Below are positions 37,503 to 42,642 of a stretch of DNA of 64,000 nucleotides, piece after piece (within the stretch, counting starts at the first letter, position 1; each line of letters opens with the position of its first letter). Under the pieces are notes generated by a model. That model ran no database searches and had not been told where the DNA came from. It saw only the letters and a program-made list of their open reading frames with translations. Source of the DNA: Flavobacterium sp. (GTDB lineage: Bacteria > Bacteroidota > Bacteroidia > Flavobacteriales > Flavobacteriaceae); assembly GCA_014377455.1 (NCBI GenBank), contig JACMPO010000077.1, forward strand, positions 81,443-145,442, in the 5' to 3' direction. The position numbers and the translations under genes were made by a program.

Positions 37503-38830
37503 ATGAAAATAGAAAAGAGATGGATAATTTCATTTGTACTAATAAGTATTGTAGCCATTTCAGGCTTATTTTGGAAAACAAAAAATGCTGTTGTTTCTGC
37601 TACTTTTGATACCAGTACATCTATAAATTTTGCTGATGTTGCTTGGTTATTAACCGCTTCCTGTCTTGTTTTATTGATGACTCCAGGGCTTTCCTTTTTT
37701 TATGGAGGTATTGTTGGCAAAAAAAATGTGCTTTCTACTATGTTCAAAAGCTTCATTTGCTTGGGAGTAATCAGTTTACTTTGGGTTGTTATTGGTTTTA
37801 GTTTGTCATTTGGAAGTCCTGTTGGGATAACAATAAACGGAATTTATTACGGAATTTTTGGAAATCCGTTTGACTTTGCTTTTTTTAATCAAGTTGTTGT
37901 TTTACCACACAAAAAACTGGGTTCGACTATTCCTTTTATTCTTTTTGCTCTTTTTCAAATGAAATTTGCTGTAATAACTCCTGCATTAATCACAGGAGCT
38001 TTAGCCGAACGCATTCGATTTATTTCTTTTCTTTTATTTATTTGTTTATTCTCGATTTTCATTTACGCTCCATTGTGTCACATGATATGGCATCCAAATG
38101 GTTTGTTAGGAAGTTATTTTGGAGTGAAGGATTTTGCTGGATGCACTGTTGTTCACATGAGTGCAGGTTTAGCTGCACTTGCAGGAGTTTTAGTTCTAGG
38201 TAAACGAAAAAATAGCGAACATATCCCAACTAATATACCTTTTGTCCTTTTAGGAACTGGAATGTTGTGGTTTGGATGGTTTGGCTTTAATGCTGGATCG
38301 GCATTAGCTGCAAATGCAATGGCAGCAATGGCATTTGCAACAACAATAATAGCATCAGCGGCAGCAATGTTAACTTGGGTATTTTATGATAGAATAAATG
38401 GTAGGAAAATTTCCACACTTGGTGCGTGCATTGGAGCTGCTGTAGGATTAGTTGTTATTACTCCTGCTGCAGTTTATGTTTCCATTCCTGAGAGTATATT
38501 CTTCGGATTTATTGGTGCAATTGTTTCAAATACTATGGTTTATTGAAAAAAATTGATGACACTTTAGACGTTTTTGCCTGTCATGGTGTAGGCGGAATTA
38601 TGGGAATGATTTTAACAGCTATTTTTGCTAAAGGCGAAAACGCTAGTTTACTTCATGGAGGATGGAATATATTTGGCCATCATATGATCGTCTTAATTCT
38701 AGTAAGTAGTTTTACTTTTTGTGGTGCGTATTTATTATTTAAAATAACAAATACTATAATTCCCCTTCGAGTTTCGGAAATTTCAGAAGAACTTGGATTA
38801 GATTTGCCGCAACATGATGAGAAATTTTAA
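37503..38830 (+). pseudogene. amt: Ammonium transporter, frameshifted (37503..38546 and 38543..38830)
   Basis: First ORF: LLTASCLVLLMTPGLSFFYGGIVGKKNVLSTM ... GFIGAIVSNTMVY*; second ORF continues KKIDDTLDVFACHGVGGIMGMILTAIFA in frame -1/+2. Confidence 0.85.
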
Positions 38831-39509: not shown

Positions 39510-39947
39510 ATGAAAATTAATAAAAAAGCGAAATTAATTATAGGTAGTATTTTAGGAATATTTCTATTGTTTTTTTTGATTTTGGTTTACCATATTGCTA
39601 CTGCTAAACCAGTAGTTGTTGATGAACCACATTTACAAATTAGTAGAATTGATTTTTCTGAACCTTTAGATTCTGCACAAGCTAAACAAGTTTGTAAAGA
39701 TTTAAGGACTATTCAAGGGATCACAAAAGATAGTATACTTGTTAAAAGAAATGTTGTTGTATATTTTCATGATAACTCATTAACAAATTCTCAAAAAGTA
39801 TTTGATCAATTAATGACAAAAAGAAAATATAATGCAAAACCATTTTTTGTTTCAAAAGAATTAGCATCAAAATCGGTATGTCCAGCTATGAAAAACAATA
39901 GTTTTAGCTTTCGATTTTCAAGAGAAATACAACGAATTTTTAATTAA
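39510..39947 (+). CDS. Membrane-anchored protein with ferredoxin-like (HMA-like, no CxxC) domain
   Basis: N-terminal TM IIGSILGIFLLFFLILVYHIA; predicted beta-alpha-beta-beta-alpha-beta ISRIDF...QAKQVCKDLRTIQGI...NVVVYFHDN...VFDQLMTKRKYNAKPFFVS. Confidence 0.6.
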   Translation: MKINKKAKLIIGSILGIFLLFFLILVYHIATAKPVVVDEPHLQISRIDFSEPLDSAQAKQVCKDLRTIQGITKDSILVKRNVVVYFHDNSLTNSQKVFDQLMTKRKYNAKPFFVSKELASKSVCPAMKNNSFSFRFSREIQRIFN

Positions 39948-39965
39948 TCTATAAATATTTAAATC

Positions 39966-40565
39966 ATGAAAAAGTTTTCAAAATTTGCATTATGTGCATT
40001 AGTAATTACAAGTGCTTTTTTTACATCTTGTAGTTCAAGTTCAAACGATCAAACCCCAGCACCTTCTTCTCCAACCATCTATGCTAGATTGGGAGGAACT
40101 GCACCTGTTCCAGATCCTTATAATCCAGGAAATACAACTGAAGCAGGACGTTTGGCTTACACTAAAGTTGTTAAATCAACAATCCAAAATATTATTGCGG
40201 ATATAACTAGTAACCCACCAGCACAAGGAAATCTGGGTGCTCATTTTGCGCCTTTGCTTTCTGAAACAGGAGCAACTCAGGCAACAAATTTGGCTGAATT
40301 AACAAATAATTTAGTTAATTTCTTTTCTTATAATACCGGTGGAACAAATCCAATAAATACTTACACTGGTATGGATATGGCGACTGCACACAATCCTGCA
40401 ATGAATCCTAGAATGGGAGTTAAATCAACTAGTGCAAATTATACAAAATTTGAAGGTTATGTAGGTGCGGCTGCTGTTACTAATGGTGTAGCTGCTAACA
40501 CGCAACTTTATTCAGATATAGTTGCTGTATTGGAATCATTGAGACCAACAATAGTTCAACAATAA
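39966..40565 (+). CDS. Lipoprotein with truncated (group 1-like) hemoglobin domain
   Basis: Lipobox FFTSCSSSSND; IYARLGG, LTNNLVNFFSYNTGG, YTGMDMATAHNPAM match trHb1 signatures including putative proximal HisF8. Confidence 0.75.
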   Translation: MKKFSKFALCALVITSAFFTSCSSSSNDQTPAPSSPTIYARLGGTAPVPDPYNPGNTTEAGRLAYTKVVKSTIQNIIADITSNPPAQGNLGAHFAPLLSETGATQATNLAELTNNLVNFFSYNTGGTNPINTYTGMDMATAHNPAMNPRMGVKSTSANYTKFEGYVGAAAVTNGVAANTQLYSDIVAVLESLRPTIVQQ

Positions 40566-40587: not shown

Positions 40588-40626
40588 GAAAACGCTGCCT
40601 AATTCTTTTTTAGGTGGCGTTTTTTA
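40588..40626. terminator. Terminator between hemoglobin lipoprotein and DUF255 gene
   Basis: AAAACGCTGCCTAATTCTTTTTTAGGTGGCGTTTTTT with GU pairs. Confidence 0.82.
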
Positions 40627-42642
40627 TTTTAAAATATAATCGATTACCTCTTCTATCTTTTTAAATGGAAGTTGACATATTCTGTTTTGACATAAATAAT
40701 ATAAATTTTCATTTTTACTAAATCTATTTTTTAAAAATGGGAGTTGAGACACTTTACTAGTACCAGCAATAACAGTGTTTGGCAAAAACAAGCTATTCCA
40801 CTTTTTCAAATCCTGTGACACATTATTTCCACAAATTGCTATTTCATTATTTAGATTCAAAAAATAAAGTGATGCATTGAGCCAGTTAGAATAAGCCGAA
40901 GCATAATCAATATTTGGAATGATATTCAGAATCATTTTTTGAGCAATTTCTTCATAATAAGTAAAATCAAAATAAGTACTTAAGGCAAGTAAATTAGAAG
41001 CCATAACAGAATTTGACGCAGGAATCACATTATCTTCTAGCTCAAAATGAGTTGTTATTAATTCATCATCTTTTATAGATGTAAATCTAAAAAAGTGAGT
41101 TTTCGCATCATAAAAATTATCCAAACAATAATCTACAAGTTGCTTCGCCGTTTGGAGCCAATTTTCATCTAATGTAATTTGATATAAACCAATAAAAGCT
41201 TCGATTGTAAAACAATAATCTTCTAAATATCCGTTTATAGTAGCTTTATTGTGTTTATAATTATGATATAAATTCCCCGATTCTAATAGAAATTTTTGCA
41301 AAATAAAATTCCCATTCTGTAGTGCAATTTCTAAATACTTTTCAGTTCCAAAAGCTTTGTAAGCATCTATAAAACCTTTTAACATAATGGCATTCCAAGA
41401 ACACAAACACTTATCGTCAAGTCTTGGTTTAGCTCTTTTTTCACGTTCAAAATGTAAAATTTCTTCCCACTCGGTTTTCTTATTTTGCAAGTCGAGTTCT
41501 GAAATTGAATTTTGCGATGCAATTTCACGCAACGATTTATTTTGAATTAAAACATAATTCCCGTTTTCCCAAAATCCGAAATCGTTTACATTAAATACCT
41601 CCGAGAACAAATTGAAATCTTGTTTTATAATTTCTTTTAGTTCTGTTATTTTCCAAACATAAAATGCGCCTTCTTCAAGATGATTTTCATGATTGATACT
41701 ATCAGCATCAAGCGAAGCATAAAATCCAAATTCTGGTGAGAATAATTCTTTTTCGACAAACAAAAGTGTTTTTTCAACAACCTGTTTGTATAGAATATTT
41801 TTAGTTAATTTATAAGCATTACTATATAAACTCACAAGTTGTCCGTTATCATATAGCATTTTTTCAAAATGAGGAATATGCCATTTAAAATCTACTGAAT
41901 AGCGTGAAAATCCTCCATCAACTGTGTCAAAAATTCCTCCGTAAGCCATTTTGGTAAGTGTAAGATTTACAAAATCTAATAGAGTATTATTTTGAGTTAC
42001 ATAACCATAATTAAGTAGAAAATTATAATTGGTAGGCATCATAAACTTTGGAGCTCTAGCCATGCCACCAAACTCTAAATCAAAACTTTTTTGCCACTTC
42101 TGAATTAATAATTCTATAGCTTCAAAATTAAATTCTGTATTTGGATTATCATTTGATATTACTGATAATTGTTGTAACCCTTCGTGCAGTTTATCGGCGT
42201 ATTCTATTAATTTTTCTGGATTTTTGGAATACAAATCCTGCAATTGAATTAAATAGTCAATCCATTCTTCTTTTCTAAAATAAGTTCCGCCCCAAACTGG
42301 TTTTCCATTTGGAAGACAAACCACATTTAAAGGCCAACCGCCACGTGACGTCATTATTTGCACTGCTTTCATGTAAACCGCATCTACATCTGGTCGTTCC
42401 TCTCGATCTACTTTTATTGCAATAAAATCTTTATTCATTACGGTTGCAACTTCTGTATCTTCAAAACTTTCGTGCTCCATAACATGACACCAATGGCACG
42501 CTGCATAACCTACACTAACAATTATAAGTTTGTTTGTTAAAACTGCGGTATCCAACGATTTTTGGTTCCATCCTTTCCAAAACACGGGATTAGTAGCGTG
42601 TTGTAATAAATAAGGACTGGATTCTAAATGGAGTTCATTCAT
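40624..42642 (-). CDS. Thioredoxin domain-containing DUF255 (YyaL-like) protein
   Basis: NPVFWKGW, GYAACHWCHVMEHESFEDTEVA, KVDREERPDVDAVYM, GGWPLNVVCLPNGKPVWGGTYF. Confidence 0.95.
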   Translation of the reverse strand: MNELHLESSPYLLQHATNPVFWKGWNQKSLDTAVLTNKLIIVSVGYAACHWCHVMEHESFEDTEVATVMNKDFIAIKVDREERPDVDAVYMKAVQIMTSRGGWPLNVVCLPNGKPVWGGTYFRKEEWIDYLIQLQDLYSKNPEKLIEYADKLHEGLQQLSVISNDNPNTEFNFEAIELLIQKWQKSFDLEFGGMARAPKFMMPTNYNFLLNYGYVTQNNTLLDFVNLTLTKMAYGGIFDTVDGGFSRYSVDFKWHIPHFEKMLYDNGQLVSLYSNAYKLTKNILYKQVVEKTLLFVEKELFSPEFGFYASLDADSINHENHLEEGAFYVWKITELKEIIKQDFNLFSEVFNVNDFGFWENGNYVLIQNKSLREIASQNSISELDLQNKKTEWEEILHFEREKRAKPRLDDKCLCSWNAIMLKGFIDAYKAFGTEKYLEIALQNGNFILQKFLLESGNLYHNYKHNKATINGYLEDYCFTIEAFIGLYQITLDENWLQTAKQLVDYCLDNFYDAKTHFFRFTSIKDDELITTHFELEDNVIPASNSVMASNLLALSTYFDFTYYEEIAQKMILNIIPNIDYASAYSNWLNASLYFLNLNNEIAICGNNVSQDLKKWNSLFLPNTVIAGTSKVSQLPFLKNRFSKNENLYYLCQNRICQLPFKKIEEVIDYILK

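Follow-up and report, generated by a model that had tools for sequence, protein, structure and literature searches.

The lipoprotein gene described here and the gene immediately upstream of it encode a divergent, exported subfamily of truncated hemoglobins (trHbs) and its obligate inner-membrane partner, for which we give about an even chance of a role in handling heme outside the cytoplasm. Both the homology of the lipoprotein to the group-1 trHbs and its obligate pairing with the partner, an HMA-like protein, are well supported. The parts are known, and their combination, a trHb variant with an obligate partner, is unusual. The pair adds an exported, lipid-anchored trHb subfamily that is missed by current family models, an inseparable partner and a recurrent tie to heme synthesis. 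If the proposed function is correct, the pair would give the Bacteroidota an extracytoplasmic heme route and put the globin fold to a use beyond gas binding.

Organization of the gene pair

The pair lies in a window of 64,000 nucleotides, which is the whole stretch of DNA that was analyzed, from a draft Flavobacterium genome of 3.29 Mb in 269 contigs. Flavobacterium soli is the nearest named relative possessing the pair. In the list of open reading frames (ORFs) both genes are on the forward strand with an intergenic gap of 18 nt. The two co-directional ORFs reported in the first-pass annotation are real, and the strong terminator that it placed after them was also recovered 3' of the globin gene. 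It consists of a hairpin of 15 pairs followed by a U-rich tail, and none of 200 shuffled sequences equaled it in stability. A simple pattern scan for terminators did not pick up this hairpin. The features of the unit are as follows:

39510..39947, forward strand: partner coding sequence, ORF of 145 aa, with one N-terminal transmembrane (TM) segment and an HMA-like domain
39534..39590, forward strand: TM segment of the partner, aa 9-27 (hydropathy window 2.89; AF2 helix 5-31)
39591..39593, forward strand: His28, at the predicted periplasmic end of the TM segment (His in 72/72 partners)
39630..39854, forward strand: HMA-like domain, β-α-β-β-α-β, aa 41-115 (AF2 secondary structure; CopA profile match)
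39879..39884, forward strand: Cys124-Pro125, the CP dipeptide (70/72 partners; one gapped, one aberrant)
39966..40565, forward strand: coding sequence of the globin-like lipoprotein, ORF of 199 aa, with profile matches to group-1 trHbs
39966..40031, forward strand: lipoprotein signal peptide and lipobox with Cys22 (FFTSC; Cys in 71/71 relatives)
40101..40154, forward strand: clade-specific A-B insert, aa 46-63, consensus MVADPxNPGQMIExGRL, in none of the trHbs aligned
40245..40247, forward strand: CD1 Phe94 (71/71)
40290..40328, forward strand: E helix, aa 109-121, with E7 Leu112, E11 Leu116 and E14 Phe119 (alignment to trHbN and other group-1 trHbs)
40389..40391, forward strand: proximal His142, F8 (71/71)
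40392..40430, forward strand: clade-specific F-G loop insert, aa 143-155, with Arg149 (Arg in 70/71)
40588..40630 (approximate), forward strand: intrinsic terminator (-22.4 kcal/mol, z = -6.1)

Homology to group-1 truncated hemoglobins

When the globin and the partner were scanned singly against Pfam, NCBIfam and PHROGs, neither gave a match above cut-off. A single-sequence search of the PDB returned only matches to T-cell receptors, which were dismissed as chance. A profile of three globin relatives gave 14 matches in the PDB, 14/14 of them group-1 trHbs (E 0.1-1.1), and with a profile of 17 relatives the best match reached E 1.6e-7 and the top 22 ranks were all trHbs. The globin clade was also compared by hhalign with group-1 trHbs taken from other genomes of the phylum, yielding probabilities of 98.4-99.3%, against 0.1-0.7% for six column-shuffled profiles and 6% for group 2/3 trHbs. 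Given the profile match and the shuffled controls, the likeness to group-1 trHbs seen by eye in the first-pass annotation is beyond chance, and the stretches IYARLGG, LVNFFSYNTGG and YTGMDMATAHNPAM are present as noted there. Phylogenetically, the globin relatives form one clade with support of 100/97.

Neither window protein reaches the family suggested for it, PF01152 for the globin and PF00403 for the partner. Because the curated cut-off of PF01152 is reached neither by the window globin nor by 17 relatives, the family is described as a divergent sister clade and not as a member of PF01152. In structure prediction, trHbs were the top Foldseek matches of the globin, with E-values of 0.4 or more. 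The AF2 model, built from two sequences, had a pLDDT of 48 and is too weak to be taken as proof of the fold. Searches of viral contigs found no relatives. Weak matches to signal peptides at L005, L013, L014 and L036-L038, in other families, were set aside as likely signal-sequence similarity.

With group-1 trHbs such as those of Mycobacterium tuberculosis (trHbN) and Shewanella benthica (PF01152), the globin shares the Y..LGG motif of the A helix, the E helix with its GG, the YxG motif, HisF8, Phe at CD1 and E14 and the order of the helices. Unlike them, it is an exported lipoprotein with an obligate partner gene, falls below PF01152 detection, carries inserts of about 17 aa (A-B) and about 10 aa (F-G) and has apolar residues at B10 and E11. 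The lipoprotein trHb of genome G482 (L071/L100) resembles the globin in its lipoprotein signal, its trHb domain, the E-helix extension 'PLLDDVGKGNT', the apolar B10 and E11 and the neighboring ECF sigma/anti-sigma genes. In contrast to the globin clade, it passes PF01152 (48 bits), lacks both inserts and has no adjacent partner, and in the tree it falls outside the clade. This protein bridges the globin clade to the classical trHbs.

The predicted heme pocket

Residues were counted over 71 sequences, one of which is the G482 lipoprotein trHb, and helix positions were assigned by alignment to trHbN, for which PDB mutants name B10 and E11, and to other trHb1s. The proximal HisF8, which the first-pass annotation had recorded as kept, proved invariant. 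The first-pass reading of B10 and E11 as nonpolar also stands for the whole set, with Ile, Val or Leu at B10 and Leu, Phe or Ile at E11 without exception, and E7 is Leu in all 71. Position G8 apparently corresponds to the invariant Phe162, as read from the alignment. Glycine motifs mark the A-B turn (G43/G44, 45/45) and the E-F turn (G125, 44/45; G126, 39/45; the remainder are gaps). Within the A-B insert, Asp50 and Arg62 are found in 70 of the 71 globins.

The trHbs analyzed previously each possess at least one hydrogen-bonding distal residue (PMC4720485). TyrB10 and GlnE11, which stabilize bound O2, are missing from the globin, so O2 storage and NO dioxygenation are disfavored. An apolar distal pocket that, from the alignment, would offer no hydrogen-bond donors argues against both tight O2 binding and NO dioxygenation. 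With B10, E7 and E11 apolar, the roles that are left would involve heme itself or weak ligands.

Export and lipid anchor

The lipoprotein form deduced from FFTSC was borne out, the lipobox Cys being present in all members. In Bacteroidota, the signal for surface export is acidic and directly follows the lipobox Cys (PMC5080379). Such an acidic run, of at least two acidic residues, was found in 41/45 relatives; in the window globin (CSSSSND), an acidic residue was looked for at +2 to +6 and none was found.

The view that trHbs are normally cytosolic holds only in part, since surface and periplasmic trHbs have been published and further exported group-1 trHbs were found here. YjbI of Bacillus subtilis is a surface-located protein-hydroperoxide peroxidase (PMC9536834), and cable bacteria possess periplasmic trHb domains, fused to cytochromes, that are proposed O2 reductases (PMC11976967). 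Both resemble the globin in placing a trHb outside the cytoplasm. They differ from it in that YjbI belongs to group II and has no signal sequence, the cable-bacteria trHbs are multiheme fusions, and no HMA-like partner has been described for either (PMC9536834, PMC11976967). A literature search, with most subscription journals outside its reach, found no lipoprotein trHb in Bacteroidota. Inspection by eye identified group-1 trHbs with Sec-type signals in other genomes of the phylum (L096, L098, L105 and L106 [match at 1501]). These signals indicate that export extends beyond this globin clade and suggest that exported trHbs may be commoner than described.

The partner protein

The partner had been described as a single-TM, HMA-like protein without CxxC, and the present analysis agrees. 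Lys residues precede the TM segment, and the C-terminal domain is therefore predicted to be periplasmic. A profile of the partner family matched the HMA domains of CopA (E 2.5e-4), and in an AF2 model of moderate quality the order of elements fits β-α-β-β-α-β. A PF00403 scan of 17 partner relatives matched two of them weakly, with a best E of 0.0059, and Foldseek was not specific, giving HMA domains and other ferredoxin-like folds similar scores. In the order of its elements and the CopA profile match, the partner is like the HMA domains of CopA, CopZ and MerP (PF00403). It differs from these in being TM-anchored, in carrying a Cys-Pro in its C-terminal tail and in lacking CxxC; the metal site (MxCxxC) is absent throughout the aligned partner family.

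The C-terminal tail CPAMK...FSREIQRIF was thought to be conserved. This is true of the Cys-Pro across the phylum, but conservation of the FSREIQRIF portion is largely confined to Flavobacterium. CP dipeptides have been described as heme motifs (PMC3059290). Cys-Pro by itself is a weak sign that the partner binds heme.

Pairing and distribution

The pair is conserved outside this genome. The partner is present at 76/76 loci of the globin clade, a few of which represent the same genome twice, and in a sample of 259 genomes of the phylum the same 12 genomes hold both genes (12/12). The partner lies 12-68 nt upstream of the globin, usually 20-26, at the 72 loci measured. At L065, L076, L156 and L169 the partner is also present, but overlong ORF starts make the ORFs overlap and the distance is not usable. 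About one-third of Flavobacterium genomes possess the globin (69/200 with a match at E 0.001, including a few weak ones). At L168, two partner-like ORFs stand in tandem upstream of a single globin.

Gene neighborhood

Over 77 loci, L071 included, the neighbors of the pair were hemA (34), SnoaL_3 (33), SDR (32), mfd (31) and ECF sigma/anti-sigma genes (11). The 34 hemA-adjacent loci often have hemCDEF and hemH alongside, and Pfam searches verified HemA, HemC, HemD, HemE, HemF, HemH and a UPF0093 protein near the pair. On the tree, the hem label changes at least four times, which fits separate placements beside hem genes in at least three lineages, namely a Flavobacterium clade, L177 and, in another family, L069. 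G738, G845 and G863 each contain two copies of the pair (L076/L077, L078/L079 and L133/L134) with a hemA of its own after each copy, as if the pair and hemA had been duplicated together.

Nearly half of the loci have the SnoaL_3/SDR/mfd context instead of hem. In the genome of the window, the pair follows amt and a SnoaL_3 gene, and the hem cluster is without the pair. AraC and hemA genes are adjacent without the pair in this genome and in 10 pair-lacking genomes, indicating that the pair entered or left that site repeatedly. In many genomes the same gap also accommodates genes for YceI, cytochrome-like and DUF5777 proteins, so that it may in part be a hotspot for insertions. At the hem locus of L077, L079, L084, L126 and others, one or two YceI genes and genes for a CVVCH cytochrome-like lipoprotein, an OB-fold (tRNA_anti-like) protein and a DUF5777 barrel lie between AraC and the pair. 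Genes for an ECF sigma factor and an RskA-like anti-sigma factor adjoin the globin in distant families, the classical lipoprotein trHb included (L065, L068, L071, L074, L167, L175 and L177). By eye, a carotenoid gene cluster adjoins the pair at L068.

Possible functions

Taken together, the hem neighborhood, the obligate HMA-like partner and its Cys-Pro point to heme handling. From them we infer heme binding, transfer between partner and globin, and the physiological role. In the globin, heme b is expected to be held through HisF8, with only apolar residues in the distal pocket. The partner would sit in the inner membrane with its HMA-like domain in the periplasm; it has lost CxxC but retains a membrane-facing His and a C-terminal Cys-Pro. 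Most likely, it would bind heme (or a metal) transiently and load or serve the globin, which in turn would most likely buffer, carry or report heme outside the cytoplasm. A narrower version, which we regard as rather unlikely, is a heme relay in which the HMA fold of the partner has passed from carrying metal to carrying heme through its His and Cys-Pro. In this relay the lipoprotein globin would receive the heme and serve to store, carry or sense it, in a manner coupled to heme synthesis. Speaking against heme handling are the unpaired hem cluster of the window's genome, the SnoaL_3/SDR/mfd context of nearly half of the loci, the possible insertion hotspot between AraC and hemA and the weakness of a lone Cys-Pro as a sign of heme binding. 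In addition, with the partner in the inner membrane and the lipoprotein possibly on the cell surface, the two might not come into contact once exported.

A serious rival to heme handling, although we consider it somewhat unlikely, is envelope chemistry with gases or peroxides. The globin would bind NO, CO or O2, or degrade peroxides at the cell surface, and so protect or report to the envelope, the partner being a maturation aid only. YjbI and the trHb domains of cable bacteria provide precedents (PMC9536834, PMC11976967), and the ECF sigma/anti-sigma genes near 11 loci, other families included, and the carotenoid cluster of L068 are consistent with such a role. However, B10, CD1, E7 and E11 are all apolar and G8 is apparently Phe, leaving no group seen for O2 stabilization or peroxide cleavage, and no reductase gene lies alongside the pair. 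This chemistry would also leave the obligate HMA-like partner and the hemA neighborhood unexplained.

It is improbable that the pair is an electron-transfer module in which the heme iron of the lipoprotein cycles with a cytochrome-like lipoprotein and YceI proteins encoded adjacently. At about 20 Flavobacterium loci the pair does follow the DUF5777 barrel and OB-fold genes, near those for the CVVCH cytochrome-like lipoprotein and YceI, but these genes are absent from the window, the SnoaL-type loci and other families, where the pair persists. It is very doubtful that the partner handles copper or another metal via His28 and Cys124, with the globin fold as a non-heme scaffold, for while the partner has HMA ancestry and conserved Cys and His residues, its CxxC is gone, the invariant HisF8 and heme-pocket aromatics would be needless in a heme-free globin, and the recurrent neighbors are heme-synthesis genes, not metal-resistance genes.

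The neighboring ammonium transporter gene

The ammonium transporter gene at positions 37503-38830 of the window is divided between frames of 347 aa and 95 aa, compared with a single ORF of 471 aa in F. soli. The split reflects either a frameshift or an assembly error.
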